This document shows, piece after piece, positions 18,821-56,002 of a DNA stretch of 56,647 bases. The notes under the pieces are model-generated. The model saw nothing but the letters and a program-made list of their open reading frames with translations. It did no database searches and had not been told where the DNA came from. Position 1 is the stretch's first letter. The number at the start of each line of letters is the position of its first letter. A program made the position numbers and the translations under genes. Origin of the DNA: Gemmatimonadota bacterium (GTDB lineage Bacteria > Gemmatimonadota > Gemmatimonadetes > Gemmatimonadales > Gemmatimonadaceae); NCBI GenBank assembly GCA_016871895.1, contig VHBO01000010.1:1-56647 (forward strand), written 5' to 3'.

Positions 18821-20086
18821 ATGGCACGCATCCTGATCGGCTGCTGGGGATCCCACGGCGATATCGACCCCTCCATCGGCCTCGGCGTCGGGCTTCGGCG
18901 CCGCGGCCACGACGTCACCATCGCGACGATGTCGTATTTCGCGGACCACGTCCGCGCCGCAGGACTCGCCTTCCACCCGATCAGGCCGGACGTGAGTCCC
19001 ACCGACACGACAATCGTGCAGATGGTGATGGACCGCTGGCGGGGAAGCGAGCACCTCCTCCGCCGCATCATCGTGCCGGCGATCCCGCAGATGTACGAGG
19101 ACCTCGAGGGGCCCGCGCGCGCGTCGGACCTCCTGATCAGCCACGCCCTTACGATGCCGCTCCCGCTGCTCGGAGAACGGTACGGCATCCCGTGGGTGAG
19201 CACGGCGCTCGCGCCGATGATGTTCTTCTCTGCCACCGACGTCCCGATCTTCCCGCCGGCGCCCTGGCTCAAATCGGTGGAACGGGTCGCGCCGTGGGTG
19301 GGGCCCGCGCTGGCGCGGAGCGCCCGCGTCGCGTCGAAGGCCTGGCTCCAGCCGGTCATCGACCTGCGCCGCCGCCTCGGGCTCTCGGATACGGGGTCGC
19401 CGATCTTCGAGGGCCAGCACAGCCCGCACCTCGTCCTCGCGCTCTACTCCCGGGTGCTCGGCGAGCCACAGCCCGATTGGCCCGCCAACGTCGTCATCAC
19501 GGGCCAGATGTTCCACGACGCGGTGCACGGCGCGACGCTCCCGCCCGCCGTGGCGCGGTTCCTCGACGACGGGCCGGCCCCCTTCCTCTTCACCCTCGGC
19601 TCATCCGCGGTGCTCACGCCGGGCCGATTCTGGGACGAGAGCATCGCCGCGACGCAGCGGCTCGGCGGGCGGGCGCTGTTGCTCGTCGGGCCGGAGAATC
19701 GCGCGATGCTGGATGCCACGCTCCCACCGGGATGCCTCGCCGTGGAACGCGTCCCGCACTCACTCGTGATGCCGCGCGCGGCCGCGGTCGTTCAACAGTG
19801 CGGCATCGGCACCCTGACCTTCGCGATGCGCGCCGGCGCCCCGATTCTCGCGGTCCCCTTCGCCAACGACCAACCGGACAACGCCTACCGCGCCGCGCGG
19901 CTCGGCGTAGCCCGCATCGTCACCCCGGGTCGCTACCGCGCACGGCGCGTCGCCGCCGAGCTCGATGCGCTCACCCACGATCCGGCGGTTCGGACCGCGG
20001 CGGCACAGGTGGCGGCGCGCGTCCAGTCGGAGGGCGGGGTGGACGCGGCCTGCGATGCGCTGGAGTCGCGCTTCGCGCTCCGCTAG
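18821..20086 (+). CDS. GT-B glycosyltransferase, UGT/RhlB-like
   Basis: This 421-residue family 1-type glycosyltransferase would transfer a sugar from a nucleotide sugar to a lipophilic acceptor. The N-terminal acceptor domain begins with [22 protein letters not shown] (positions 4-25; the GSHGD pattern is typical of RhlB and sterol or macrolide glycosyltransferases). The C-terminal donor-binding segment has [18 protein letters not shown] and [11 protein letters not shown] (about 325-355); the usual His of this signature is Gln here. It converges on hemL with a 4-bp stop overlap. Because carotenoid glycosides occur in phototrophic Gemmatimonadota, a carotenoid-modifying role is possible, but only position supports it. 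Confidence 0.75.
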
Positions 20087-21381
20087 ATGTCGCAGCGCCG
20101 CAGTGCGTCCTCGACCTGATCCATCACCTCATCGTTGTGCATCACCGAGGTGAACCCCGCCTCGAACTGTGACGGCGCGAGATACACCCCCTCCCGCAGC
20201 AGCTCGTGGAAGACGTATGCGTACCGTGCCGTGTCGGCGGTCTTCGCCGTCGCGTAATCCACGACCGGCGTCGATGTGAAGAACGAGCCCCACATCGTGC
20301 CGGCTCGCGCGGCTTGGAACGGGATCTCGCGATCCGCCGCCCAGTCCGTCAGCAGCCGGACGAGCCGCGCCGCCGCGGTCTCCGCCCGCTCGAACATCCC
20401 GTGGCGCGAGAGGACATCGAGCGTCGTGATCCCCGCCGCCATCGCGACGGGATTCCCGCTCAACGTCCCGGCTTGATACATCGTCCCCGCCGGCGCGACC
20501 ATCTCCATCAGGTCGCGGCGGCCGCCGTACGCGCCGACCGGCATCCCGCCGCCGATCACCTTGCCGAGCGTCGTGAGGTCGGGCGTCACGTCGTAGTACG
20601 CCTGAGCGCCACCGAGCGACACACGGAACCCGGTCATCACCTCGTCGAAGATCAGCACGATCCCCCGCGCGGTGCAGAGGGCCCGCAGCCCTTCAAGGAA
20701 TCCCGGCTGCGGCGTGATGAAGCCCGCGTTCCCCACCACCGGCTCGACGATGACCGCCGCCACCGTGTCGACGTGCGCGTCGAGGAGCTGCGTCACCGCG
20801 TCGAGGTCGTTGTACGGCGCAGTGAGCGTGTCGGCCGCGGTGCCGGGTGTCACACCCGGGGAATCGGGGAGGCCGAGCGTCGCGACGCCGGAGCCAGCCT
20901 GCACCAGAAACGCATCGCCGTGCCCGTGATAGCAGCCGGAGAACTTGAGGAGCTTCGCCCGCCCGGTCGCGGCGCGCGCCAACCGCACCGCGCTCATCGT
21001 CGCCTCGGTCCCGCTCGAGACGAAGCGCACCATCTCCATCGACGGCACCATCCGCACGATCCGCTCAGCGAGATCGGCTTCGAGCGCACACGGCGCCCCA
21101 AAGCTCATCCCGTCGACGACCTGCTTCCGCACCGCCTCCACCACTTCGGGATGCGCGTGCCCGAGGATCATCGGGCCCCACGAGAGGACGAAATCGACGT
21201 AGCGGTGGCCGTCCGCGTCCCACAGGTAGGGGCCCTGCGCGCGCGAGATGAAGCGCGGCGTCCCGCCCACCGAGCGGAACGCGCGTACGGGGCTGCTCAC
21301 GCCACCTGGCATCAGGGTCTTGGCGCGGGCGAAGAGCGCCTCCGACCGCGAGGTCGGGGGTGCGTCGCTGGGTTGGATCAT
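20083..21381 (-). CDS. hemL: Glutamate-1-semialdehyde 2,1-aminomutase
   Basis: HemL converts glutamate-1-semialdehyde to 5-aminolevulinate, the second step of the C5 route. The PLP lysine is in [33 protein letters not shown] and the N-terminal [13 protein letters not shown] are family signatures. I choose the ATG at 21381 (MIQPSDAPP, 432 residues) because it overlaps the hemB stop as ATGA; an upstream ATG at 21399 would add six residues. It is the last gene of the hemC-hemD-hemB-hemL operon. With HemA it shows that this organism does not rely on ALA synthase, unlike alphaproteobacterial phototrophs. Confidence 0.95.
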
Positions 21382-22391
21382 CCCGCCGTGGACAGCCATC
21401 GGGCGGCCTCCTTCGCATAGTAAGTGATCACCTGGTCGGCGCCCGCACGGCGGATCGCCACGAGCGACTCGAGTGCGGCCCGGCGCTCGTCGAGCCAGCC
21501 CCGCTCGGCCGCGGCCTTCAGCATCGCGTACTCCCCGCTCACCTGATACGCCACGAGTGGATGTGGGAAGCGGTCGCGCACCTGTCGGATGATGTCGAGC
21601 GCGGAGCCGGCGGGCTTCACCATCAGCAGGTCGGCGCCCTCGTCGACGTCGATCTGCACCTCGACGAGCGCTTCGCGCGCATTCGCCGGATCCATCTGGT
21701 ACGCACGCCGGTCGCCGAACGACGGCGTGCTCTCCGCCGCGCCGCGGAACGGTCCATAGAACGCCGAGGCGTGCTTGGCGGCGTAGCTGAGGATCGGCGT
21801 GTCGAGGAAGTCCGCGTCGTCGAGCGCCGTGCGGATCGCCGCGACCTGACCGTCCATCATCGCGCTCGGCGCGACGATGTCCGCGCCGGCCCGCGCGTAG
21901 CAGACCGCGGCGGCGCCGAGGAGCGGGAGCGTCTCGTCGTTCACGACGACGCCTGAGTCATCGCGCACGACCCCGCAGTGCCCGTGCGCGGTGTACTCGC
22001 AGAGGCAGACATCGGCGATCACCACGAGCGACGGGTCGAGCCGCTTGAGTTCGGCGATCGCCTGCGGCACCGGCCCATCCGAATCCCACGCCCCCGTCCC
22101 TTCGTCATCCTTGTGGCGAGGGATCCCGAAGAGGAGCACGCTGCGGATGCCGAGCGCGCGGATCTCCTTCACCTCGGCGGCGAGCCGGTCGACGGAGAGC
22201 TGCGCGTGTCCCGGCATCGTCTCGATCGGCTTCGAGATGCCGGTGCCCTCGACGATGAAGAGCGGATGGATCAGGTGCCCCGCCTCGAGCGACGTCTCGC
22301 GCACGAAGGCGCGCAGCGCCTCCGTGCGACGGGTCCGCCGCGGGCGGCGCGCGTCAGGCAGGGTGGTGGGGACGAAGGTGTCGAGCATCAC
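21378..22391 (-). CDS. hemB: Porphobilinogen synthase (5-aminolevulinate dehydratase)
   Basis: HemB condenses two 5-aminolevulinates to porphobilinogen. The 337-residue protein has both Schiff-base lysines, in [15 protein letters not shown] and in [12 protein letters not shown]. The cysteine cluster [14 protein letters not shown] marks the zinc-dependent class. It lies 12 bp after the hemD stop and overlaps hemL at its own stop. Confidence 0.95.
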
Positions 22392-22403
22392 GGCCTCCGG
22401 GGG

Positions 22404-23195
22404 TCAGACGGCGACGGAACGGGTGGTACAGCAGCGGAGCAGTGCATCGATGAGGCCGGCGTCGTCGTGGCTCGCGGCGACCGCGTCCACGGGGAGCCCG
22501 CAGTCGCGGGCGGCGGACGCGGTGACGGGTCCGATGCAGACGATGAGCGGCCGCGTGGCGGGATCGAGGTCGACCATCGCGATCCCTGCGGCAGCCAGCC
22601 CCTCGACGACGTGACGGACGGTGGAACCGCTCGTGAAGGTGATGGCGTCGACGTGGCCATCGCGCAGGATCTCCGCGACGCCGAGCGAGCCCGCGTCCGA
22701 GACGGTCCGGTAGGCCACCGGCGCGCGCACGGTCGCGCCGCGCGCGGTGAGGGTGTCGACGATGGCGGGGCCGGCGAGGTCGCCGTGCGGCCAGAGGACG
22801 TGGTCCCCGGCGGTCACGGGGAGTTCGCGCCCGAGCGCGTCGGCCACCGCCTGCGAGGGGGTGAAGGCGATCGTCGCACCGGCGGCGCGCAACGCGACGG
22901 CGGTCGCCGTCCCCACCGCCGCGATCCGTAGCGACGTGGGCCAGGTCGCCTCCGGTCCGCGCGCCGTCACGACGGCCCGCACCGCGTTCGCGCTCGTGCA
23001 GACGAGCCAGTCCATCGTATCGAGGCGCTCGAGCGCCTCCAGGAGCGGCTGCGGGTCCTCCGGCGGGAGGATGCGGATCGCCGGCGCGGCGATCGGCATG
23101 GCCCCAAGGGTGCGCAACGACTCGAGCAATGCGGCGCCCTGAGCAGCGGCGCGCGTCACGACGATGCGGCGTCCCTCGAGCGGCCGCTCACGCAT
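22404..23195 (-). CDS. hemD: Uroporphyrinogen-III synthase
   Basis: HemD closes hydroxymethylbilane and inverts ring D. The family is poorly conserved; recognised here are the N-terminal GRRIVVTRAAAQ, the WLVCTSANAVRAV segment, AITFTSGSTVRHVVEGL and CIGPVTASAARDCGL. The ATG at 23195 (263 residues) overlaps the end of hemC by 8 bp; codons upstream of it belong to the hemC reading region. The operon position between hemC and hemB supports the call. Confidence 0.9.
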   Translation of the reverse strand: MRERPLEGRRIVVTRAAAQGAALLESLRTLGAMPIAAPAIRILPPEDPQPLLEALERLDTMDWLVCTSANAVRAVVTARGPEATWPTSLRIAAVGTATAVALRAAGATIAFTPSQAVADALGRELPVTAGDHVLWPHGDLAGPAIVDTLTARGATVRAPVAYRTVSDAGSLGVAEILRDGHVDAITFTSGSTVRHVVEGLAAAGIAMVDLDPATRPLIVCIGPVTASAARDCGLPVDAVAASHDDAGLIDALLRCCTTRSVAV

Positions 23196-24132
23196 GCGCG
23201 GTCCCCGCGGCGAGCGCCTCGGCGAGGAGCGTCGAGCCGCCCGAGGCGACGAGCGCATCGGCGGTCGCACGTCCGATCGCGACCGCGTCATCGACCGCGC
23301 CGTCGCGATGCACACGCACCAGTCGCCCGTCGGGCGCGCCGACGAGCGCGGTCATCGTCAGGGTGTCACCGTCGATGGTCGCGAAGCCTGCGAGCGGCGC
23401 ATTGCATCCCGCTCCCATGGCGGCCAGGAAGGCGCGCTCCGCCTCCGCGCATCGACGGCTCGGGAGATGGTCGAGCGCGGCGCAGAGGGCCTGGGCCTCG
23501 GTGTCGTCCGCGTGCGTCTCCACCGCGAGGATCCCCTGCGCGACGGCGGGGAGCATCCGGTCGGGATCGAGATACTCGGTGACCACGCTGTCCCAGCCGA
23601 GGCGCGCGAGTCCCGCCGCGGCGAGGACGATCGCGTCGTAGTCACCGCGGTCGAGCTTGGCGAGCCGGGTGTCGACGTTGCCGCGGATGTCGAGGCAGAC
23701 GAGGTCGGGACGTAGCGCTTTTAGCTGACAGGCACGCCGCGGACTGCTGGTGCCCACGCGCGCACCGCGGGGGAGCGCTGCGAGCGGGCCCGCCTTCGAG
23801 ATGAGCGCGTCCCGCGGGTCGGCCCTTTCGGTGTAGGCGGCGATGGTGAAGGCGTCCCCGAGGGTCGAGGGGAGGTCCTTGGCCGAGTGCACCGCGAGTC
23901 GGATGCGGCGGGCGCGGAGCGCCTCTTCGATCTCCGCGACGAAGAGGGAGTTGCGGCCGATCGCGGCGAGGGGGCGATCCTGGATCTCATCGCCCCGCGT
24001 GCTGATGCGCTCGAGCGGGATGGCGAGCCCCGGGTGCCCCGCGAGGAGTCGGTCCCGGATGTGGTTCGACTGCCAGAGCGCGAGCTGGCTCGCGCGGGTC
24101 CCGATCACCATCGACGTATCGCTGTTCACCAT
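23188..24132 (-). CDS. hemC: Hydroxymethylbilane synthase (porphobilinogen deaminase)
   Basis: HemC polymerises four porphobilinogens on a dipyrromethane cofactor. From the ATG at 24132 the protein has 314 residues. The cofactor cysteine is C243 in GAGCNAPLAG, and the catalytic aspartate is in VHSAKDLP (about 86). IGTRASQLALWQ, GTSSPRRACQL and DIRGNVDTRLAKLD are family signatures. An ATG six codons upstream (24150) is possible. It is the first gene of the minus-strand hemCDBL operon. Confidence 0.95.
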   Translation of the reverse strand: MVNSDTSMVIGTRASQLALWQSNHIRDRLLAGHPGLAIPLERISTRGDEIQDRPLAAIGRNSLFVAEIEEALRARRIRLAVHSAKDLPSTLGDAFTIAAYTERADPRDALISKAGPLAALPRGARVGTSSPRRACQLKALRPDLVCLDIRGNVDTRLAKLDRGDYDAIVLAAAGLARLGWDSVVTEYLDPDRMLPAVAQGILAVETHADDTEAQALCAALDHLPSRRCAEAERAFLAAMGAGCNAPLAGFATIDGDTLTMTALVGAPDGRLVRVHRDGAVDDAVAIGRATADALVASGGSTLLAEALAAGTAHA

Positions 24133-24264
24133 CCACCTCCACCCGGCCAAGGCGGACGTCCCGGGACCTCGGCGCCCGGGGGGGTGCGCCCTGTGCGTCT
24201 GCCATCCGGCCCAATGGGGCCTCGGGGGCGAAGATACGGTCCGGCGGACGATTTGTCACGCCCT

Positions 24265-24292
24265 CCTGTCGTCACGCAAACCTGACGACAGG
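24265..24292. promoter_or_regulatory. Perfect inverted repeat between hemC and the phytochrome-like gene
   Basis: CCTGTCGTCA (24265-24274) and TGACGACAGG (24283-24292) form a perfect 10-bp inverted repeat with an 8-bp spacer, in the 269-bp divergent region. It does not match the PpsR site TGT-N12-ACA (the TGT/ACA spacing is 18). It could be the operator of a dimeric regulator controlling hemC, the phytochrome-like gene or both. A possible -10 TATATA for the plus-strand gene lies downstream at 24340-24345, with only a weak -35. Confidence 0.55.
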
Positions 24293-24401: not shown

Positions 24402-26579
24402 ATGCCCCGCGCCGAACGTCCCCCCGTCGGATCGGCACAGCCGTCGCCGTCGCAGATCCTCCATCATCCTGAGCGGATGGTGCAGGCGCACGGCGTCTTG
24501 CTCGTCGTCGCGGAACCGCACGGACAGATCGTGCAGGTGAGCGAGAACCTCCCAGGCCATCTCGGGTGGTCCCTCGATGACATCATCGGCCACGGTGTCG
24601 ATCGGCTCGGTCCGGAACTCGCCCACGCGGTGCGGCACTGGGCGGAAGCGCCCTCGCTGACCCTCGCTATCCCGCGTCGGGTGCGCCTGACCACCAGCAC
24701 CGGAACGATCACCGCGCTCGCGACGATGCACCGCCCCGGCACGGGAAGTGTGCTCGTCGAGCTCGAGGATATCCGGAAGACGCCGCCGAAGCGCACACCG
24801 CCGCTCACCGCACGGCTCACCGCGGTGGTCACGCAGCTGAGCGCCGCGCATTCCATCGCGGCGCTCGCCGACCTCCTCGTCACCGAACTCCGAGACCTCA
24901 CGGGATTCGAACGCGTGGTGCTGCAGCGCTGGGACGTCGCCGGGCACGCAGAGGTGATCGCCGAGTCGCGACGCCGGACGCTCGTGGCGCATCTGCATCG
25001 CCGGGTCCCGGCGCATGCGGGCCACGCGGCGATGCGCGCGCATCAGCTGCGGCAACGCACACAGCTCTCGGTCGACCTCGAGGCCGATCCGGTCGCCATC
25101 CACCCGCCCATCGAACAGTCGGGCCGGATGACCGACCTCACCGCCGCATCGCTCCTCGCGGTGCCGCCGGCGGAACGGGCGCAGCTGCGCGCCGACGGGG
25201 TCGGGGCGCTCTTCGACGTCTCCCTGTTGCACGAGGGACGGGTCTGGGGGCTCCTCCACTGCACGCACACGAGCGCGCGCTATCTCACGGTCGAGGTCCG
25301 CGCCGCCATCGAACTCCTCGCTGAAGTCGCCTCCACGCGCATCTCGGCGCTCGAGCACTACGCCGAGGCGCAGGCGGAGGTGCTGGTGCGCCGTCTCGAA
25401 CATCGGCTCATCGAAGCCACCTCGGCCGATGGAGACTGGCAGCGGGCGCTCTTCGAGACGCCGCGACAGCTTCTCCAACCCCTCGGTGCGACCGGCGCCG
25501 CGTTGCGCTTCGACGGAGAGATACACACGACCGGCGAGGCGCCCGCGCCCACCGATCTGCAGCGACTCTTCGCCTACCTCGACACGCTACCGATGGCGGC
25601 GGTCTTCGCGACGGCGGCCATCGGCAAGGAGCATCCCCCGCTCGCCGGGATGTCACGATCGGCCGCCGGTGTGCTCGCCGTCCGGATCGGTGCGGCGCGC
25701 GGCGAATACCTCGCCTGGTTCCGACGCGAACAGCCGCACGACGTCACGTGGACCGGTGCCAATCCCTCGGTGGCGCCAGCCGCGTCGCCTGCCGCCGACC
25801 CCACCTGGCGGGAGCACATCCGCGAGACCGCGTTGCCGTGGCGGATGCGGGAGTGTGCGATCGCGAAGGCCATCGGGGCTTCAGTGGCAGATATCGTCAC
25901 GCAGCTCCGCTCCGTTCGCGTGCTCATCGCCGAACGGCAATTGATGAAGATGCACGGCGCCGTCGAGGCGATGGATGAACCAGTCGTCATCACCGACGCC
26001 GACGGCGACATCCTCCTCATCAATTCTGCGGTCGGCCGGCTGATTGGCGGGCCACATCGGCAACTCCAGACGCTTGAGGATCTCGCCGCCGCCTTCTCGG
26101 ATGCCGAGGAGACCACCGAGATGCTCGGAACCCTGCTCATCGACCGCCGTCCGTGGCGCGGGGAAGTGCGCCTCGCCGCGCGCGCTGGCGACGCGGGCAC
26201 GCCCGTGGCGGTCCGCGCCGACCCGATCCCCGGCGTCGATGGTGGGCTGCTCGGCGTCATCGTGATGCTCACCGATCTGAGCGAGCGGCACGGCGCGGAC
26301 GTCGCGCGGGACCGCCTGCAGCGGCTCATTCTCGCCGCCCAGCGCCCCGGTGGCGCGCCCGGCGATGCGCCGCCCGCGCCGCCCACGGTGCAGGCGCTCG
26401 TCTCCGCCATCTGGGCGAATGCCGGCGTCGCGGTGAGTGAGATCGCCGACAGCGCCGATGCCGCATCGATCGCGCCGCTGTTGCAGGAGGTCGAGGCGGC
26501 CACCGAGCACGCGGTCCGGCTCTCGGCCATCCTCGGGCGCTTCACCCTCGATCCCGGTCCGATCCCCGACGGCGAATAG
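24402..26579 (+). CDS. Degenerate bacteriophytochrome-like sensor (PAS-GAF-PHY-PAS)
   Basis: The ATG at 24402 (after AGGAAC) gives 725 residues. A phytochrome photosensory core is recognisable. The PAS entry has HHPERMVQAHGVLLVV (21-36), like the bacteriophytochrome IHIPGxIQPHG segment. The GAF domain has LTAASLLAV and ADGVGALFDVSLLHEGRVWGLLHC (264-287). The PHY domain has RLEHRLIEAT (331-340) and a tongue-like GEYLAWFRREQPHDVTWTG (434-452). A second PAS lies at about 516-625, then helical segments; no histidine kinase ATPase domain is seen. Key photochemical residues are missing: no Cys before the PAS, the PASDIP motif reads PAHAGH (203-208), the GAF His is Glu (ERAQL, about 258) and PRxSF is absent. 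It converges on hemY with a 6-bp gap. Confidence 0.75.
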   Translation: MPRAERPPVGSAQPSPSQILHHPERMVQAHGVLLVVAEPHGQIVQVSENLPGHLGWSLDDIIGHGVDRLGPELAHAVRHWAEAPSLTLAIPRRVRLTTSTGTITALATMHRPGTGSVLVELEDIRKTPPKRTPPLTARLTAVVTQLSAAHSIAALADLLVTELRDLTGFERVVLQRWDVAGHAEVIAESRRRTLVAHLHRRVPAHAGHAAMRAHQLRQRTQLSVDLEADPVAIHPPIEQSGRMTDLTAASLLAVPPAERAQLRADGVGALFDVSLLHEGRVWGLLHCTHTSARYLTVEVRAAIELLAEVASTRISALEHYAEAQAEVLVRRLEHRLIEATSADGDWQRALFETPRQLLQPLGATGAALRFDGEIHTTGEAPAPTDLQRLFAYLDTLPMAAVFATAAIGKEHPPLAGMSRSAAGVLAVRIGAARGEYLAWFRREQPHDVTWTGANPSVAPAASPAADPTWREHIRETALPWRMRECAIAKAIGASVADIVTQLRSVRVLIAERQLMKMHGAVEAMDEPVVITDADGDILLINSAVGRLIGGPHRQLQTLEDLAAAFSDAEETTEMLGTLLIDRRPWRGEVRLAARAGDAGTPVAVRADPIPGVDGGLLGVIVMLTDLSERHGADVARDRLQRLILAAQRPGGAPGDAPPAPPTVQALVSAIWANAGVAVSEIADSADAASIAPLLQEVEAATEHAVRLSAILGRFTLDPGPIPDGE

Positions 26580-26585
26580 TCGCGG

Positions 26586-28007
26586 TCAGACCGCGAGCGG
26601 CGTCCGGTGGGCGCCCTCGCCGGAGAACCGGTTCGACCGGCCGCTCGCGGCGCCCCGCTCCTGCACGATCCGCGTCGCCAACTGCTGTCCCTGTGCGAGG
26701 CAGTCGCCCAGCGACACGCCGCCGCGCCACTGCCCCCCCAGATAGAACCCAGGGTGCTCCGACTCGATGCGGAGCGCGGCACCGACCACGCGCTCGTGTC
26801 CGAGCGCGTACTGCGGGATTGCCTGCGGCCAGATCTGATGCTGCACGAGGGTCGGTGCGGCGCGCACGCCGAGGAGTGCCTGCAGGTCTGCGAGGATGAG
26901 CGGGAGCACGGCATCCGTCGACATCCGGCCGATCTCCGGCGCGCGCTGGCCGCCAAGGAAGCAGGTGATGAGAACCTGCCCGGCGGGCGCGCGTCCCGGA
27001 AAGAGCGATGAGGAGAAGATCGCGCCGAGGAGGGTGCGACCTTCGACGGCAGGGCAGAGCATCCCGAAACCATCCAAGGGATGTGCGACGGCCTCACGCG
27101 GGAAGCCCAGTGCGAGCGTGGCGACCGGCGGATGCTCGAGGCGCTCGATCGGTTGGAGCGCCTGTCGGATCTCCCACGGCAGGTCGATCGCGTGCACGGC
27201 GTGCGCGGGGCCGGTATAGCAGACGGCGTCACAGGCGATCTGCGCCGGACGGCCCTCTCCATCTTCGACGCCGACCTGCCAGCCCTCCGTGTGCGGTTGC
27301 ACCGTGGTCACACGCGTCCGGAGGCGCACGCGGCCGCCGAGCGCTTCGGCCATCGCGTTCGGCAACGTCGCGAGCCCCTCGCGGAAGCTCGTGATCCCCC
27401 GGTGGCGGACGACCCCCGCGCGAGCACGCGCCTCGCGGATCCCGCCGAGGAGGATGGAGCCGTGGCGCCGCTCCGCGTGGAAGAGCATCGGCATCGCGTG
27501 ACGTGCCGAGAGCGTCTCCGGATCGCCAGCGTAGATTCCCGAGACGAACGGGGCCACAAGGTAGGTGAGCACCTCGGATCCGAGACGGCGGCGCACGAGC
27601 GAGGCAATCGACTCGTCCGCGGCGCCGCGCACTGGGGTCACCCAGGGTTCGCGGAGGAGCCGCCACTTGGCGCCGCGCGAGAGCGCGCGCGAGGCGAGGA
27701 GCGACGCGGGTCCGGACGGGAGCGCCACCGGCGTGCCGTCGCGGACGATGAAGCGCCGCTTCGCGGACGGGGTGGGGAAGACGCGCTCGTCCTCGAGACC
27801 CAACCGCGTGATCAGCGACTCGAGCGTCGATGTGGCGCTCAGCGAGGTCGGACCCGATTCGATCAGGAAGCCATCGACGCGACGCGTGGTGATCACACCG
27901 CCCACGCGTGCGCCGGCGTCGAGCACCGTCACGTCGACGCCCTGGTCGCGGAGTTCGAGCGCCGCGCTCAACCCCGTGACCCCAGCGCCGATCACGACGA
28001 CGCGCAT
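26586..28007 (-). CDS. hemY: Protoporphyrinogen oxidase, oxygen-dependent
   Basis: This 473-residue FAD enzyme oxidises protoporphyrinogen IX to protoporphyrin IX with O2, or in some Gram-positive-type homologues coproporphyrinogen III. The dinucleotide site is VVVIGAGVTGLSAALEL (3-19). The second signature includes GGVITTRRVDGFLIESGPTS (36-55), and the C-terminal FAD segment includes YLGGQWRGGVSLGDC. It is the last gene of the long minus-strand operon, 4 bp after hemF. Because HemF and HemE are present, the classical protoporphyrin route is expected. Confidence 0.9.
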   Translation of the reverse strand: MRVVVIGAGVTGLSAALELRDQGVDVTVLDAGARVGGVITTRRVDGFLIESGPTSLSATSTLESLITRLGLEDERVFPTPSAKRRFIVRDGTPVALPSGPASLLASRALSRGAKWRLLREPWVTPVRGAADESIASLVRRRLGSEVLTYLVAPFVSGIYAGDPETLSARHAMPMLFHAERRHGSILLGGIREARARAGVVRHRGITSFREGLATLPNAMAEALGGRVRLRTRVTTVQPHTEGWQVGVEDGEGRPAQIACDAVCYTGPAHAVHAIDLPWEIRQALQPIERLEHPPVATLALGFPREAVAHPLDGFGMLCPAVEGRTLLGAIFSSSLFPGRAPAGQVLITCFLGGQRAPEIGRMSTDAVLPLILADLQALLGVRAAPTLVQHQIWPQAIPQYALGHERVVGAALRIESEHPGFYLGGQWRGGVSLGDCLAQGQQLATRIVQERGAASGRSNRFSGEGAHRTPLAV

Positions 28008-28011
28008 CAGA

Positions 28012-28977
28012 TCAGGCCTCGGTGGCCCAGTCGCGCGGCGCGAGCATCGCGGCGAGCTCCGCCTCGATCGATCCCTGCGCCGGCTCGTGGTACGGCGCCC
28101 ACGCGGCGAGCGGCGGGAGCGACATCAGGACGCTCTCCGTCCGCGCGCCGGTCTGCAGCCCGAAGATGGTGCCCCGGTCGTGCACGAGGTTGAACTCCAC
28201 ATAGCGTCCGCGACGGTAGAGCTGAAGCGCCTTGTCGCGCTCAGTATACGGCAGGTCGCGCCGTGCGTGGACGATCGGACCATAGGCGTCGTCGAGCGCG
28301 CGTCCGACGGTGGTCACATACGCGTGCAGCGCCTCGGGTGCGAAGTGGAACGGCCCTTCGCCGGGACGCAAATGGTCGAAGAAGACGCCGCCGATGCCAC
28401 GGGCCTCGTTGGCGCGGTGCAGGTTGCGGAAGTACTCGTCGCACCACGCCTTGTGCGCGGGGTAGAGCCGCGGATCGTGGGCGTCGCACGCCCACTTGAG
28501 CGAGCGATGGAAGTGCCGGGCATCATCCGGGAAGGGATGCATCGGCGTGAGGTCGGTGCCGCCACCGTACCAGGCGTCGTGCAGCTGGCCGTCGGCGTCG
28601 GTGAGCTCGAAGTACCGCACATTGAGATGGACGGTTGGGACCATTGGCGACCGCGGGTGCACCACCACGCTGACACCGGTCGCGAAGAAGTAGGGGGTCG
28701 CGTCGGGCGGCACGTTCCCGCCGAGTCGCTTGGCCGCCTCGGGGGGTAGGATCCCCTCGACGAGCGCACGGTTCACGCCCGCCTTCTCGAAGACCGCCCC
28801 ATCACTGAGGAGCCGCGACCGACCGCCACCGCCGCCCTGACGGTCCCACGCCGCCTCGGAGAAGTGCCCGCCGTCGAGCCGCTCGAAGAAGGTCGTGATC
28901 TCATCCTGCAGCTGCGCGGTCCACGCTGCCATCAGGTCGCGCCGTGCTGTGCGTGTGAGTCCTTTCGCCATCGTCAT
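28012..28977 (-). CDS. hemF: Coproporphyrinogen III oxidase, aerobic
   Basis: HemF decarboxylates two propionates of coproporphyrinogen III using O2. From the ATG at 28977 the protein has 321 residues. Family motifs are NVPPDATPYFFATGVSVVVHPRSP (in part), HLNVRYFE, WYGGGTDLTP, HKAWCDEYF and GIGGVFFDHL. The start overlaps the hemE stop as ATGA. No anaerobic HemN is in the window. Confidence 0.95.
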   Translation of the reverse strand: MTMAKGLTRTARRDLMAAWTAQLQDEITTFFERLDGGHFSEAAWDRQGGGGGRSRLLSDGAVFEKAGVNRALVEGILPPEAAKRLGGNVPPDATPYFFATGVSVVVHPRSPMVPTVHLNVRYFELTDADGQLHDAWYGGGTDLTPMHPFPDDARHFHRSLKWACDAHDPRLYPAHKAWCDEYFRNLHRANEARGIGGVFFDHLRPGEGPFHFAPEALHAYVTTVGRALDDAYGPIVHARRDLPYTERDKALQLYRRGRYVEFNLVHDRGTIFGLQTGARTESVLMSLPPLAAWAPYHEPAQGSIEAELAAMLAPRDWATEA

Positions 28978-30050
28978 CGCGTCATCTCCGCCGATTGTGC
29001 CGCGGCCATCGCACCGCGAGAGTCCCACGCCTGCACCGTCTCGATGAATGCCTTCGCGTGCGCCACCGGGACGTCAGGCAGGATCCCGTGTCCGAGGTTC
29101 GCGATGTAGCCGGGCCCGTCGATCGCCGCGAGCATCGCCTGCGTTCGCTCACGGATCACCTCCGGCGCCGCGTACAGCGTGCACGGATCGAGGTTCCCCT
29201 GAATGCCACAGCGCCGCGTGTCCGCGACCCCACGGGCCCACGCCGCGTCGGTGTGCCAGTCAACACCGAGGACATCGCACCCCGTGGCCTCGGCAATCTC
29301 ACCCAGCGCCCAGCCGGCGCCCGGCGCGAAGGCGATCACCGGGACGCCCGCGGTCTTGGCGATGCGCGCGGCTCGCGCCATATACGGCAGCGCGAACTCG
29401 CGGTACTCGCGCGGGCCGAGCGAGCCGGCCCACGAATCGAAGAGCTGCAGCGCCTGCGCCCCCGCGGCCGCCTGCGCGACGAGGAAGCGGCCGACGTTGT
29501 CGGCGAGTCGCGCAAGCAACGCGTGCGCGAACTCAGGATCGGCGAAGAGCAGCTTCTTGGCGATGCTGAACGACTTCGTCCCCTTCCCCTCGGTCATATA
29601 GGCGAAGAGCGTCCACGGCGACCCGGCGAACCCGATGAGCGGGACGCGGCCGTCGAGCGCGCGGCGCGTCATCCGGAGCGCGTCGAGATGGTAGCGGAGG
29701 CCCTCCTCCGGCTCCACGTCGCTGAGGCGCACGAGGTCGCGCATCGTGCGGACCGGATCGGAGAACTGCGGGCCGACCCCTTCGTCGACGGTGAGATCCA
29801 TCCCCATCGCGTCGGGGATCACCAGGATGTCGGAGAAGATGATTGCCGCATCGACGCCGATGAGGTCCACCGGCTGCAGCGTCACCTCGGTGGCGAGCTC
29901 CGGCGTGCGGCACATCGTGAGGAAGTCGGCCTTCGCGCGCACCGCACGATACTCGGGGAGATAGCGACCGGCCTGTCGCATCATCCAGACGGGCGGGCGC
30001 TCGACCGGTTCACGGCGGAGGGCGCGGAGGAAGAGATCGTTCGTGGCCAT
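28974..30050 (-). CDS. hemE: Uroporphyrinogen decarboxylase
   Basis: HemE removes four carboxyl groups from uroporphyrinogen III. The 358-residue protein has the PPVWMMRQAGRYLPEYR signature (about 19-35), the IIFSDILVIPDAMG segment and GFAGSPWTLFAYM. It overlaps hemA by one base (TGATG) and hemF by four. Confidence 0.95.
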   Translation of the reverse strand: MATNDLFLRALRREPVERPPVWMMRQAGRYLPEYRAVRAKADFLTMCRTPELATEVTLQPVDLIGVDAAIIFSDILVIPDAMGMDLTVDEGVGPQFSDPVRTMRDLVRLSDVEPEEGLRYHLDALRMTRRALDGRVPLIGFAGSPWTLFAYMTEGKGTKSFSIAKKLLFADPEFAHALLARLADNVGRFLVAQAAAGAQALQLFDSWAGSLGPREYREFALPYMARAARIAKTAGVPVIAFAPGAGWALGEIAEATGCDVLGVDWHTDAAWARGVADTRRCGIQGNLDPCTLYAAPEVIRERTQAMLAAIDGPGYIANLGHGILPDVPVAHAKAFIETVQAWDSRGAMAAAQSAEMTR

Positions 30051-31372
30051 CAGTGGCTCCGGGGGGAGGGACGCCGGCCGCGTGGCCGGCTACGGTCGGA
30101 CGCAGGCGCCGGCATCGGCCCAGCGAAGAGAGAGTCGAGCGTGAGGTGGAACGCCTGCAGCGCCTCGCCGTGGGCGATGGCGGTGCGGAGCTTCGTCATC
30201 GGACGGGCGAGGAGCTTCGCGACGATTCGGTCGGTGGCGTGGTCCGCCACCGCATCCCCCGCCGCGAAGGTGAGCTCGCGACGACAGATCTCCGTGAGCG
30301 CCTCGGCGAGCGGACGGATCGCCTCGCGGGCGGCGGCGACCGCCACCCACTCGACGAAGCTCGCCAGCTCGGCGTCGACGATCGATTCCGCCGCGGGCGC
30401 CGACGACTTCCGCGCCTCCTCCGCCTGCAGCACCGGCAGATGGAGCGCGTCGAGGTCGGCCACGGTGATCCCGGGCACCCCGTGCAGCGCCGGGTCGATG
30501 TTCCGTGGCATCGAGAGATCCATCAGGAGGACCGGATAGGCGCTGGTGCCGCAGTTGGCGCGTGCCACTGCGAGTGCCGGCGCCGTCACCACGGGTTCGT
30601 GTGACCCCGTCGCGGCGATCGCGACATCCGCCATCGCCACCTCCACGTGCAGTGCCTCATAGGGCGCGGGGCGGCCACCGACCTCCGCCGCCAGCGTCTG
30701 CGCACGCTTGGGCGACCGGTTGATGCAGACGACGTCGCGCGCGCCGAGCTTCACGAGCTGACGGGCCACCGACTGGCCGGTCTTCCCACACCCGATTACG
30801 ACGAGTCGCGCGTGCGCGAGGTTGCCGAAGCGGTCATGCGCGACCGCTGCGGCCTCGGCGCCGACGGACCGTCGCCCCGCGGTGAGCGCGGTCTCGGCGT
30901 GCACCCGCTTGCCGGCGCGGAGCGCGGTCTCGAAGAGCCGATGCAGCACGGAGCCGGCGGCGCCGGCGTCGGCCGCCTCGCGGTATGACTGCCGGAGCTG
31001 GCCGAGGATCTGGCCGTCGCCCATCACCTGAGATTCGAGGCCGCTGGCGATGCGCAACACGCGTCGCGCCACGTCGAGCCCCGCGCGCCGCTGGGCCACG
31101 CCGAGGAGCGCCTTCGCCCCCGCGCGATTCCCCATCCAGACCCGCGCGATCGCCTCGACCGCGTCGTCGAAGGCTGCGGTGCTGGCGGGATCGTGCCCGC
31201 CGGTCCAAGCGTAGATCTCGCTGCGATTGCACGTGGCGATCGCGACGAGCTCGCGGACATTGGCGGGCAGCGTCGTCGTGTGGAGCCGGAGGATCCGCTC
31301 CGGCGAGAGATGGAACCGCTCCCGCGTCGCGACGTTCGCGTGGCGGAAGTCGACCGCGATGGAGATCAGCAT
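30050..31372 (-). CDS. hemA: Glutamyl-tRNA reductase
   Basis: HemA reduces glutamyl-tRNA(Glu) to glutamate-1-semialdehyde, the committed step of the C5 pathway. The 440-residue protein has the nucleophile C48 in VAIATCNRSEIY, the NADPH-domain loop VIGCGKTGQSVARQL, and a C-terminal dimerisation helix region ending in a basic tail. It starts 4 bp after tspO ends, within the bch/hem operon, so ALA supply may be co-regulated with photopigment synthesis. Confidence 0.95.
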   Translation of the reverse strand: MLISIAVDFRHANVATRERFHLSPERILRLHTTTLPANVRELVAIATCNRSEIYAWTGGHDPASTAAFDDAVEAIARVWMGNRAGAKALLGVAQRRAGLDVARRVLRIASGLESQVMGDGQILGQLRQSYREAADAGAAGSVLHRLFETALRAGKRVHAETALTAGRRSVGAEAAAVAHDRFGNLAHARLVVIGCGKTGQSVARQLVKLGARDVVCINRSPKRAQTLAAEVGGRPAPYEALHVEVAMADVAIAATGSHEPVVTAPALAVARANCGTSAYPVLLMDLSMPRNIDPALHGVPGITVADLDALHLPVLQAEEARKSSAPAAESIVDAELASFVEWVAVAAAREAIRPLAEALTEICRRELTFAAGDAVADHATDRIVAKLLARPMTKLRTAIAHGEALQAFHLTLDSLFAGPMPAPASDRSRPRGRRPSPRSH

Positions 31373-35639: not shown

Positions 35640-36553
35640 GTGAGGCTCCGGAGGGCGACCGCGGCGACCATCATCCCCGAGACGTAGAACGGGACGCCGA
35701 CGGCGGAGAGGAAGAGCGCCCGCTCACGCGGGGCGGCGAGGAATCGCGCCATCAGGCCGAGCTGCACCGCGACGAGCGCGGCGATCCCCATTGGAGCGCC
35801 GCTCGCGCCCCACGTCCGGAGGAGACCGATGACGAGGAGTTGGGGCAGGACCATCACGGCGCAGAGCACCCACGCCGCACGCGAGACCCCGAGCGTGGCG
35901 GGGAGGGAGCGGATGCCCATCCGGCGATCGCCGTCGATCGCCTTGAAGTCATTGAGGGTCAGGATGCCGTGCGCGCCGAGCGAGTACAGCGCCGCGATCG
36001 CGAGGACGCGGCCGTCGGGGAGCGCCCCGCCGAGGAGGACCACGGCGCCGGTCACCCAGGCGAGCCCTTCATACGTGATGCCGACCGCGGCGTTGCCGAT
36101 CCATCCGTTCTGCTTGAGCCGGAACGGAGGCGCGGAGTAGGCCCACGCGAAGGCGAGGGCGATCGCCACCGCGAGCACACCCGTCGGTCCGAGGGGGATC
36201 GCGGCCGCGAGCGAGAGGAGGGTCCAGACGATCGCGATGCGCAGCCCCCACGTGCCCGGCATCCGACCCGAGGGGATCGGGCGGTGCGGTTCGTTGATCG
36301 CGTCGACGTGTCGATCGAACCAGTCGTTCGCGGCCTGGCTCGTCGCACAGACGAGCGGACCGGTGATCAGCACGCCGAGTGCCACGCTGCCGAGTCGGTC
36401 ACGCACCGGCAGACCGGTGGAGACGACGCCGCAGGTGAAGGCCCACATCGGTGGGAACCAGGTGACGGGCTTGAGCAGCTCGACGATCGCCGAGGCGTTG
36501 GGCACGCTCCGCATCGGCGTCGACGACGCGCTGACACCAGAAAGTGTCGTCAT
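35636..36553 (-). CDS. bchG: Bacteriochlorophyll synthase (geranylgeranyl transferase)
   Basis: BchG esterifies bacteriochlorophyllide a with geranylgeranyl diphosphate in the membrane. This 305-residue UbiA-family prenyltransferase has the first Asp-rich motif NDWFDRHVDAINEPHRPIPSG-type (the DRxxD starts near 80) and the second in LNDFKAIDGDRRMGIRSLP (about 200). SAPPFRLKQNGWIGN between them is characteristic of BchG/ChlG. It starts 54 bp after ppsR. Confidence 0.94.
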   Translation of the reverse strand: MTTLSGVSASSTPMRSVPNASAIVELLKPVTWFPPMWAFTCGVVSTGLPVRDRLGSVALGVLITGPLVCATSQAANDWFDRHVDAINEPHRPIPSGRMPGTWGLRIAIVWTLLSLAAAIPLGPTGVLAVAIALAFAWAYSAPPFRLKQNGWIGNAAVGITYEGLAWVTGAVVLLGGALPDGRVLAIAALYSLGAHGILTLNDFKAIDGDRRMGIRSLPATLGVSRAAWVLCAVMVLPQLLVIGLLRTWGASGAPMGIAALVAVQLGLMARFLAAPRERALFLSAVGVPFYVSGMMVAAVALRSLT

Positions 36554-36607
36554 CGCGTGACACCGGGGGAGGACGGACCGCGGCGGAGGGGCACGTGCGT
36601 CATCCGA

Positions 36608-38032
36608 TCAGACGGCTTCGGCGGTGTCGGTGTCGCCGCCCGAGAGACCGTGGCGGCGGAGCTTCACGTAGAGCGTCTGACGCGAGAGGCCGAGGACCTC
36701 GGCGGCCGTGGTGCGATTGTCGCCGGTCAGCTCGAGGGCGGCTTCGATGAAGTGCCGCTCGACGAGGTCGGTCGTGTCCTTCACGAGCGTCGGGAGCGAG
36801 ACGCGACCGACGAGCGCGGTGAGATCCTCGACCGCCTTCGTGAGGTCGCGTGCACCGTGCGGGACGGTGGCGACGCGCCGACCGACGTCCCGCATGATGA
36901 AGCCGATACCGGCGCCGTCACCCCCGGTGAGCGTCACGGCGGAGAGCTCGATCTCCGAGCTGAGGCCGAGGTCGCCGCGCACGCTGCTCGCCGCCACCCG
37001 CACCACGCCGTGCTTCTTGAGCGTCGAGAGGAAGACCTGCAGGTCGGCACCGGGCCGGCCCACCCAGTTGCCGAGCGAACGCGCCTTCGCCTGCTCCTCG
37101 CTCGCGAGCTGCGCGAGGTCGAGGAAGGCGCGATTGGCGTAGACGATATCGCCCTCGGCGTCGGTGATGACGCAGGCATCGGGGGCCGCCTGCACGAGCG
37201 CGAGCACCTGCTCGCGCGTCACGCTCGCCCCCACCGGTGCGGCGAAGCGCGACAGGCGGACGAGGAGGAGCGTGAGGTTCTCCTGTCGGAAGCAGGAGGC
37301 GGAGGCAAGGGACTCCCCGCGGTCGTCGGCGAGAGTGATGCGCACGTCGCCCGCGTGCCCGGTGGTGCGCGCCGCGGCGAGGAGATCCTCCATCGCGCGA
37401 GCGGAGCCGGCGGCGATGCCGAGCGGGAAGCTCCGTCCGACGAGCTTCTCGGCGGGGAGGTCGAAGAGACGTGATGCGGCGTTCGAGGCATCGACCACCT
37501 TCATCGTGTCGGCGTCGACGACGATGATCGCGTCGGTCGAGAGCTGGAAGAGGAGACGATAGCGTGTCTCGACGTGACGGAGCTTCCAATAGTCGCGCTC
37601 CATCGCCTGCTGCGTGTCGACGAGGCGCTGCTGGAGCGTGGAGATCGCCCGGAGGTCGCGCCCGACGGCGACGACCGAGCCGTCCTCGGCGCGGACCGCG
37701 TTGTACGCGACCGGGATGTCGGCGCCCGCACGAGAGGGATGATTCACCTGGCGTCGGCGCGTCGTCCCCGCCGACGTCGCCTCACGCAGCATCTGCTCGA
37801 TCTTACCGCGGGACTCGGGGGTCACCGTATCGACCCACGGCGTCCCAATCCACCCTTCCGCCCCGTCGACGGGCGCCTCCGTCCCGCTGAACTCGACATG
37901 TCGGATGATGCCGCCGCGATCCACGACCAGCGCCACCTCGCTGGTGGCGGTGATCAGCTTCGCCGCCCAGTCCGGTGCGAGACCGGAGAGGGGAGCGCGC
38001 GAAGCGTCGGAAGCGGAGTGACCGGAAGTCAT
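36608..38032 (-). CDS. ppsR: PpsR/CrtJ photosynthesis gene repressor
   Basis: This 474-residue transcription factor has an N-terminal PAS-like domain (about 20-130), a coiled-coil Q-linker (about 132-160), two PAS domains (about 160-265 and 275-390) and a C-terminal Fis-type helix-turn-helix (TTAAEVLGLSRQTLYVKLRRHGL, shown as the landmark near 440-462). PpsR represses bch, crt and puc genes by binding TGT-N12-ACA pairs; such sites occur here at 38827 and at 55959/55985. Only two cysteines are visible (ASASCFRQ and PDACVIT). The redox cysteine that CrtJ/PpsR carries just before the HTH is Phe here (ERHFIEAALEL), judged from memory of those sequences. It follows aerR by 30 bp. Confidence 0.92.
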   Translation of the reverse strand: MTSGHSASDASRAPLSGLAPDWAAKLITATSEVALVVDRGGIIRHVEFSGTEAPVDGAEGWIGTPWVDTVTPESRGKIEQMLREATSAGTTRRRQVNHPSRAGADIPVAYNAVRAEDGSVVAVGRDLRAISTLQQRLVDTQQAMERDYWKLRHVETRYRLLFQLSTDAIIVVDADTMKVVDASNAASRLFDLPAEKLVGRSFPLGIAAGSARAMEDLLAAARTTGHAGDVRITLADDRGESLASASCFRQENLTLLLVRLSRFAAPVGASVTREQVLALVQAAPDACVITDAEGDIVYANRAFLDLAQLASEEQAKARSLGNWVGRPGADLQVFLSTLKKHGVVRVAASSVRGDLGLSSEIELSAVTLTGGDGAGIGFIMRDVGRRVATVPHGARDLTKAVEDLTALVGRVSLPTLVKDTTDLVERHFIEAALELTGDNRTTAAEVLGLSRQTLYVKLRRHGLSGGDTDTAEAV

Positions 38033-38062: not shown

Positions 38063-38767
38063 TCATCCGAGGGTGAGCTCGGCGATGCCGCGGAGGCGAC
38101 GTGCCATCAGGATCGCCGACTCGGCGTCGGTCGCGATCGCATCCACCCCAAGATCCTCGGCGAGTGATGGTTCGGAATCGAGCAGCTGTCCACCGACGAG
38201 CACGCGGATGTCATTGTTGCGTGACACCTGTCGTACTCGGCGGATGTCCTTGCGCAGTCCCGGTACGTGCTGGGTGCACGCGACCGAGAAGCCGACACAA
38301 TGATACTCGGTTTTCCTAACCATGTCGAACAAAATATCTGGATTGTACGTGGTCAGCAGGTGGACATCCCACCCATCCCGAATGAAATACTCGGCGATTA
38401 CGAGTGAGCCGAGCGAGTGCTGCTCACCGGAGGCGCAGGTCAGGAGCATCCGGCCGGTCGATCCGAGCGGTGCGCTGTCGGCGAGGAAGAGCGGGCTGAC
38501 GGCACGCAACAACCGTTGGATGTGGCCGGACGCGAGCGTCACTTCATAGAAGGAGCATTCATCGGTCTTCCAGCGTTCGCCGAGGACGCGGGCAGCTGGG
38601 GTGAAGACCTCTTCAATGAGAGTCGCCGGTGACACCCCCTGCCGGAGGAGCTCACGGACGTACGCGCCTGGGGCCGATTCATCCGGTGAGAGGATGGCCT
38701 CGGTGAACTGCTCGACGATCCGTGATGTCGCCACGAGCTGTTCTCGGGCGAGGCCAGACGATGACAT
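38063..38767 (-). CDS. aerR: AerR/PpaA-type B12-binding regulator
   Basis: The 234-residue protein has a short helical N-terminal part with ERWKTDECSFYEVTLA (64-79), the helix that covers the upper face of cobalamin. A SCHIC/B12-binding Rossmann part follows, with the axial histidine H117 in SGEQHSLGSLV. In purple bacteria AerR/PpaA binds cobalamin and light-dependently antagonises CrtJ/PpsR. It is the first gene of the minus-strand operon, directly upstream of ppsR, and is divergent from bchF with a PpsR site between them. Confidence 0.9.
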   Translation of the reverse strand: MSSSGLAREQLVATSRIVEQFTEAILSPDESAPGAYVRELLRQGVSPATLIEEVFTPAARVLGERWKTDECSFYEVTLASGHIQRLLRAVSPLFLADSAPLGSTGRMLLTCASGEQHSLGSLVIAEYFIRDGWDVHLLTTYNPDILFDMVRKTEYHCVGFSVACTQHVPGLRKDIRRVRQVSRNNDIRVLVGGQLLDSEPSLAEDLGVDAIATDAESAILMARRLRGIAELTLG

Positions 38768-38826: not shown

Positions 38827-38844
38827 TGTCTGGCTGTCAAGACA
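38827..38844. promoter_or_regulatory. PpsR binding site (TGT-N12-ACA) between aerR and bchF
   Basis: TGTCTGGCTGTCAAGACA is a perfect match to the PpsR/CrtJ site. A second, imperfect copy (CGT-N12-ACA, 38851-38868) follows after 6 bp and overlaps the bchF -35 hexamer. Paired sites are the normal CrtJ/PpsR arrangement, so both aerR-ppsR and the bchF operon are probably repressed from here. Confidence 0.7.
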
Positions 38845-55937: not shown

Positions 55938-55966
55938 ATAGTACGAAGGGAGGCGTTGTGTCGCAA
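55938..55966 (-). promoter_or_regulatory. Promoter of the bchI operon
   Basis: Read on the minus strand, TTGCGA (55966-55961), a 17-bp spacer and TACTAT (55943-55938) form a sigma-70-type promoter about 32 bp before the bchI ATG. Its -35 lies inside the first PpsR site. Confidence 0.65.
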
Positions 55967-56002
55967 TACCCTGACAATATTTTTTGTCTTTTAGTATTGA
56001 CA
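55959..56002. promoter_or_regulatory. Tandem PpsR sites between bchI and crtF
   Basis: Two perfect TGT-N12-ACA sites occur: TGTCGCAATACCCTGACA (55959-55976) and TGTCTTTTAGTATTGACA (55985-56002), separated by 8 bp of A/T. Two palindromes 8 bp apart is the classical CrtJ/PpsR arrangement. Site 1 covers the bchI -35 and site 2 covers the crtF -35, so PpsR bound here should block both promoters. Confidence 0.85.

Follow-up and report, generated by a model that had tools for sequence, protein, structure and literature searches.

What can a phytochrome still do when the residues that hold its pigment are gone? This question is raised by a bphP-like gene (24402-26579, forward strand, 725 amino acids) located between two haem operons in a 56,647-nucleotide stretch of DNA from a member of the Gemmatimonadota (contig VHBO01000010.1), the whole of which is called the window here. 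An initial annotation, made from the sequence alone, described the product as a phytochrome-like protein without photochemistry that had become a light-independent sensor, perhaps of porphyrins or of redox state. Here we place the protein in its class, follow the loss of the bilin site through its relatives and ask what has been kept by selection.

RESULTS

Pfam detects PAS_2, GAF, PHY (1.9e-32) and a C-terminal PAS domain in the protein, in agreement with the PAS-GAF-PHY order described earlier, and detects no kinase domain. The start codon at 24402 is backed by the orthologue in genome G008, which begins with identical residues. The N-terminal PAS domain covers residues 22 to 124 (24465-24773) and the GAF domain residues 134 to 318 (24801-25355). 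They are followed by the PHY domain with its connecting helices (residues 319 to 504; 25356-25913), the PAS9 domain (residues 505 to 632; 25914-26297), located by Pfam and by the match to RpBphP1, and a region with a predicted two-helix HOS output (residues 633 to 725; 26298-26576). The histidine kinase output of the RpBphP4 type is thus not found by Pfam, and the PAS-GAF-PHY-PAS9 order without kinase domains is that of type 3, or RpBphP1-like, bacteriophytochromes. RpBphP1 is also the best PDB sequence (4gw9, E 4.6e-107, residues 22-633), and 4gw9 takes rank 1 when the first predicted model is searched with Foldseek. In the second model (mean pLDDT 78.8), HOS has two predicted helices (661-684 and 687-716), which occupy the position of helices hJ and hK of RpBphP1, with hJ starting at residue 656 (PMC6899989); by prediction, the two-helix HOS of type 3 is therefore present. 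Because these helices match the RpBphP1 position, the C terminus, previously described as a PAS domain and helices lacking a kinase ATPase domain, represents the ordinary type 3 output rather than a truncation. The absence of a kinase domain stands, but the protein is not a kinase that has lost its ATPase domain. In a maximum-likelihood tree it joins RpBphP1 and is separated from the kinase-type phytochromes included (100/99), in a clade that also holds the type 3 forms of genomes G179, G122, and G189. By descent, the window protein is a PAS-GAF-PHY-PAS9-HOS member of the type 3 lineage.

Alignment with relatives that have an intact bilin site and with RpBphP1 (DrBphP numbering) showed how much of this site is gone. 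The N-terminal biliverdin-binding cysteine, expected upstream of the PAS domain, is missing, the only cysteines of the protein being Cys287 and Cys485, and the QPHG motif reads QAHG. Every bilin-pocket residue checked in the GAF domain is replaced (Tyr176, Asp207, Ile208, Pro209, Tyr216, Arg222, Arg254, Ser257, His260, Tyr263, and His290). The PAxDIP motif has become PAHAGH (residues 203 to 208; 25008-25025), so that the DIP triplet is A-G-H with Ala206 in place of Asp207, and Glu258 (25173-25175) is found where the conserved His260 is expected. The PHY tongue (residues 449 to 469; 25746-25808) is shortened, rich in proline and alanine, and without the PRxSF motif. The two AlphaFold models differ here: the first (mean pLDDT 69.7) forms a helix over residues 467-476, and the second places strands at 446-451 and 468-473. 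By prediction, the PAS-GAF fold is kept. The initial annotation had correctly listed the missing cysteine, the aspartate lost from PASDIP, the exchange of the GAF histidine for glutamate, and the missing tongue motif, but it understated the losses, as Tyr176, Arg222, Arg254, Ser257, Tyr263, and His290 are gone too.

The losses of the cysteine, aspartate, arginines, histidines, tyrosines, and PRxSF are common to four other genomes of the genus (G008, G012, G013, and G003). With that of the window's own genome (G000), these proteins form one clade (100/100) beside those of G011, G002, and G005. The first two of these neighbors keep all of the residues concerned, and so does G005 over the alignable parts of its split gene, the second piece having PRRSF. 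As the same losses occur in four other genomes and in a fully supported clade, they are due neither to chance nor to assembly error. A strong phytochrome match is present in 20 of the 395 genomes sampled from the phylum. In the 15 of these that fall outside the chromophore-less clade, the cysteine and the DIP aspartate are kept, as is PRxSF where it could be aligned; three kinase-type sequences among them have tyrosine for His260, and two differ at His290. No chromophore-less phytochrome of this type was found outside the five genomes in the 395-genome sample, and viral contigs yielded no relatives of the window protein. One loss of the bilin site inside the genus is the simplest reading of the tree. 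The evidence on the clade comes from five genomes, all draft assemblies, with sizes of 1.8 to 2.3 Mb; the three relatives with intact residues have genomes of 3.3 to 4.1 Mb. Red-light sensing may have been lost in connection with genome reduction. In G005 (L046, 11888-14085) a frameshift divides bphP, and no bphO remains at the locus; the bilin residues are intact, and another heme oxygenase is encoded on a different contig. This is possibly a separate ongoing loss, or else an assembly error.

On the 5' side of bphP lies the divergent hemC (23188-24150, reverse strand), recognized by order and sequence as the last gene toward bphP of hemL-hemB-hemD-hemC (20083-24150). On its other side lies the convergent hemY/hemG protoporphyrinogen oxidase gene (26586-28007, reverse strand; TIGR00562 and gene order), the first of hemY-hemF-hemE-hemA (26586-31372). 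Further on follow bchP, bchG, ppsR (36608-38032, reverse strand; TIGR02040, 449.6 bits against a cutoff of 275.4), and, adjoining the latter, a gene for an AerR-like B12-binding regulator (38063-38767, reverse strand), assigned from its sequence. This whole order is identical in G008, G011, G002, and G005, and the hem/bphP/bch/ppsR/aerR order is the same in G013, G012, and G003 over the contigs available. In G011 and G002, bphO, encoding heme oxygenase, is located between bphP and hemY; in the window this position is reduced to a 6-bp gap (26580-26585). A profile search of the draft assemblies for heme oxygenase (PF01126) was negative in all five genomes with the chromophore-less protein. Of the 15 genomes whose phytochromes have intact residues, 14 encode the enzyme, versus 0 of these 5 (Fisher p 0.0004, kinship ignored). 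The HugZ-type DUF2470, an alternative source of biliverdin, was not found across the genus, and neither a second PHY protein nor an intact phytochrome was found in the window's genome. With five independent absences and an empty ancestral site, gaps in draft assemblies are hard to invoke. Together with the residue losses, the negative heme oxygenase search upholds the earlier view that photochemistry is gone: from sequence evidence, it is strongly supported that the window protein has lost bilin photochemistry. The place of bphP between the two haem operons is ancestral and was once occupied by the gene for an intact phytochrome next to that for its heme oxygenase.

The region between hemC and bphP contains, at about 24254-24292, a block TTTGTCACG...TGTCGTCA...TGACGACA that forms a 10-bp perfect inverted repeat. 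An exact TGT-N12-ACA site is not present between these genes, and TGTCACG and GTC/GAC half-sites resembling the block recur in all eight relatives. This seemingly conserved block may serve hemC and bphP as an operator. Elsewhere the window has five exact TGTC-N10-GACA palindromes (36545-36562, 38209-38226, 38827-38844, 55959-55976, and 55985-56002), PpsR-like sites of the TGT-N12-ACA type, of which the last two form a tandem pair (55959-56002) and the others lie close to bchG/ppsR/aerR. By expectation there would be 0.68, and 100 shuffles gave at most 3.

In the comparison of the window with G008, the whole gene has a dN/dS of 0.149. By domain it is 0.20 for PAS, 0.25 for GAF, 0.11 for PHY, 0.12 for PAS9, and only 0.017 for HOS, where 2 replacements stand against 32 silent changes; for ppsR the value is 0.060. 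Inside the sub-clades, the chromophore-less gene has values of 0.12 to 0.15, with 0.14 to 0.25 for GAF. In the intact pair G011/G002 the GAF domain has the highest amino acid identity (72%), followed by PHY (69%), HOS (60%), and PAS9 (54%). On a fixed tree, the branches of the chromophore-less clade sum to about 4.5 times those of G011 plus G002 for GAF, 2.1 times for PAS, 1.9 times for PHY, and 1.2 times for PAS9 and for HOS. Constraint has been lowered on the sensor and kept on the output. A retained light-independent function, as had been proposed, is supported by purifying selection, which acts most strongly on the output domains. As the signalling end is preserved by selection, photosynthesis genes are probably now under the control of a protein that no longer sees light. 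The GAF domain is still under purifying selection (0.25), so it may serve beyond scaffolding, for example, in binding another ligand; alternatively, the conservation of PAS and GAF could reflect dimerisation only.

Nine genomes of the genus have PpsR (TIGR02040 above its cutoff), including all eight that carry a type 3 phytochrome; in the eight genomes that lack PpsR there is no phytochrome either. G016, of which the assembly is 83% complete, has PpsR with no phytochrome detected; a search there for hemC, beside which a clean deletion of bphP might be seen, gave no match. The other type 3 carriers, G179, G122, and G189, also have PpsR, and in G189 bphP adjoins ppsR. In total, PpsR is found in 11 of 11 genomes with a type 3 phytochrome versus 50 of the 395 in the phylum sample (hypergeometric 5e-11, kinship ignored). 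The G189 locus (C8, 134659-138797, near L059), from another family of the class, has ppsR, the type 3 bphP, and bphO side by side as a compact light-and-repressor module.

DISCUSSION

RpBphP1 is a light-driven partner of the repressor PpsR2; its HOS binds PpsR2, and the Pr state frees HOS for this binding (PMC6899989). A link between the window protein and PpsR is supported by homology to RpBphP1, by co-occurrence with ppsR, and by adjacency in one relative. The explanation that we prefer, with a probability of roughly 0.6, is that the window protein is a light-independent PpsR partner that derives from a type 3 ancestor and binds PpsR through HOS. An RpBphP1-like type 3 bacteriophytochrome would have lost bilin binding in the ancestor of the small-genome clade, the adjacent heme oxygenase gene would have been lost too, and the PHY-PAS9-HOS output would have been kept. 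HOS would still engage PpsR and tune the repression of photosynthesis genes without input from red/far-red light. The chromophore-less protein would then be either a constitutive partner or controlled by another signal, such as a thiol signal through Cys485. For the window protein, we infer the binding to PpsR, the direction in which this acts, and any replacement for the light signal.

A special case of this explanation is a redox sensor in which oxidation of Cys485, for example to an inter-subunit disulfide, would switch HOS and thereby PpsR. The residue (25854-25856) lies near the start of the PHY-PAS9 helix as a candidate thiol switch; each of the five chromophore-less proteins has it, and none of the other proteins compared does. 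The PpsR of this genus has a helix-turn-helix without cysteine, which would make a thiol input at another point useful, and RpBphP4 is a reported precedent for a conversion from light to redox. However, a lone cysteine in a single clade may be an accident of shared ancestry, and the other invariant cysteine, Cys287, is general in these phytochromes. We therefore regard this role of Cys485 as possible but tentative. The broader proposal, that the phytochrome-PpsR system of the whole lineage switched from light to thiol/redox as the bilin and the gene for its synthesis were lost and a cysteine arose in the signalling helix, is equally doubtful; if true, it would be a second independent light-to-redox case, in a non-kinase phytochrome. 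The AerR-like protein is fast evolving, with 68% identity to its G008 counterpart versus 95% for PpsR and a dN/dS of 0.24. Its B12 domain keeps the EQH motif, so a cobalamin-based light input may remain.

The haem-operon setting had suggested a sensor of porphyrins. In a reading of this kind, haem, a porphyrin, or a bacteriochlorophyll precursor would now be held in the GAF pocket, and the protein would be a reporter of tetrapyrrole level. In its favor, purifying selection on GAF persists within each sub-clade, and the window sub-clade has a His-rich stretch (PAHAGH or PAHAVH) at the old DIP site. The location, however, is shared with the intact relatives and predates the loss of bilin, so it provides no evidence for porphyrin sensing. 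Moreover, the former pocket residues are not alike in the two sub-clades, the other one having PATAVP, and no shared new ligand site is seen. We consider the reporter improbable, and the earlier suggestion of porphyrin sensing is not borne out. Still less probable is that the protein takes up bilin from the environment, holds it non-covalently, and keeps some photochemistry. The persistence of the predicted PAS-GAF fold is consistent with this idea, and the structural matches include the single pocket mutants D207A, H260A, and H290T of DrBphP, which indicates that the fold tolerates single losses. Here, however, the attachment cysteine, Asp207, both arginines, His260, Tyr263, His290, and the tongue motif are lost jointly, and heme oxygenase was not found in the five genomes. 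That the gene is a decaying pseudogene is the least credible of these readings. The frameshifted bphP of G005 and the presence of ppsR without a detected phytochrome in G016 do suggest that the gene can be dispensable. In the chromophore-less clade, however, the reading frame is open in all five genomes (that of G003 is truncated only by the contig end), and the dN/dS values within the sub-clades and for HOS refute this reading there.

Among known systems, RpBphP1 of R. palustris resembles the window protein in its PAS-GAF-PHY-PAS9-HOS architecture (35% identity in the structural alignment), in the shared clade, and in the presence of ppsR in the genome. It differs in keeping the pocket and PRRSF and in being switched by light (PMC6899989), whereas the window protein has none of the checked pocket residues and no detected heme oxygenase. 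The intact type 3 phytochromes of G011 and G002 share the locus, synteny, and architecture and are 50 to 54% identical to the window protein, but they keep all bilin residues and the adjacent bphO. RpBphP4 is a kinase whose bilin loss varies between strains of R. palustris, and Vuillet and coworkers reportedly described in 2007 how its non-bilin form went from a light to a redox sensor. It likewise concerns the loss of bilin binding, seen at the level of sequence in our case, from a photosynthesis regulator derived from a phytochrome. The window protein, unlike RpBphP4, is a non-kinase with a PpsR-type output in another phylum, the loss is clade-wide, and a redox role is only a candidate. Apo-bacteriophytochromes were reportedly also described by Fixen and coworkers in 2014, with further work in 2019, for RpBphP2/P3 in low light. 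In that system light-quality sensing is dispensable and the protein is still needed (PMC6879726), but RpBphP2/P3 are kinases able to bind bilin, a capacity that the window protein appears to have lost. RpBphP4 and these apo-phytochromes are precedents for bilin loss with a kept function, both kinase-type and from one proteobacterium.

In the Gemmatimonadota, G. groenlandica is reported to have BphP and BphO, and G. phototrophica to have neither; the presence of the two proteins has been used as an indicator of an aerobic lifestyle (PMC7844134). Red-light sensing does not necessarily follow from a phytochrome match in a phototroph of this phylum. We found no description of the chromophore-less type 3 phytochrome of this clade in the literature searched. 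Non-light roles of phytochromes become directly testable here, with the intact sister proteins as natural controls. What is new compared with the precedents is a non-kinase lineage of the PpsR type in another phylum, in which the pigment gene is lost and sister species retain the ancestral state. It provides a comparative case in which the pigment site and the pigment gene have gone and the output is the domain under the strongest selection.
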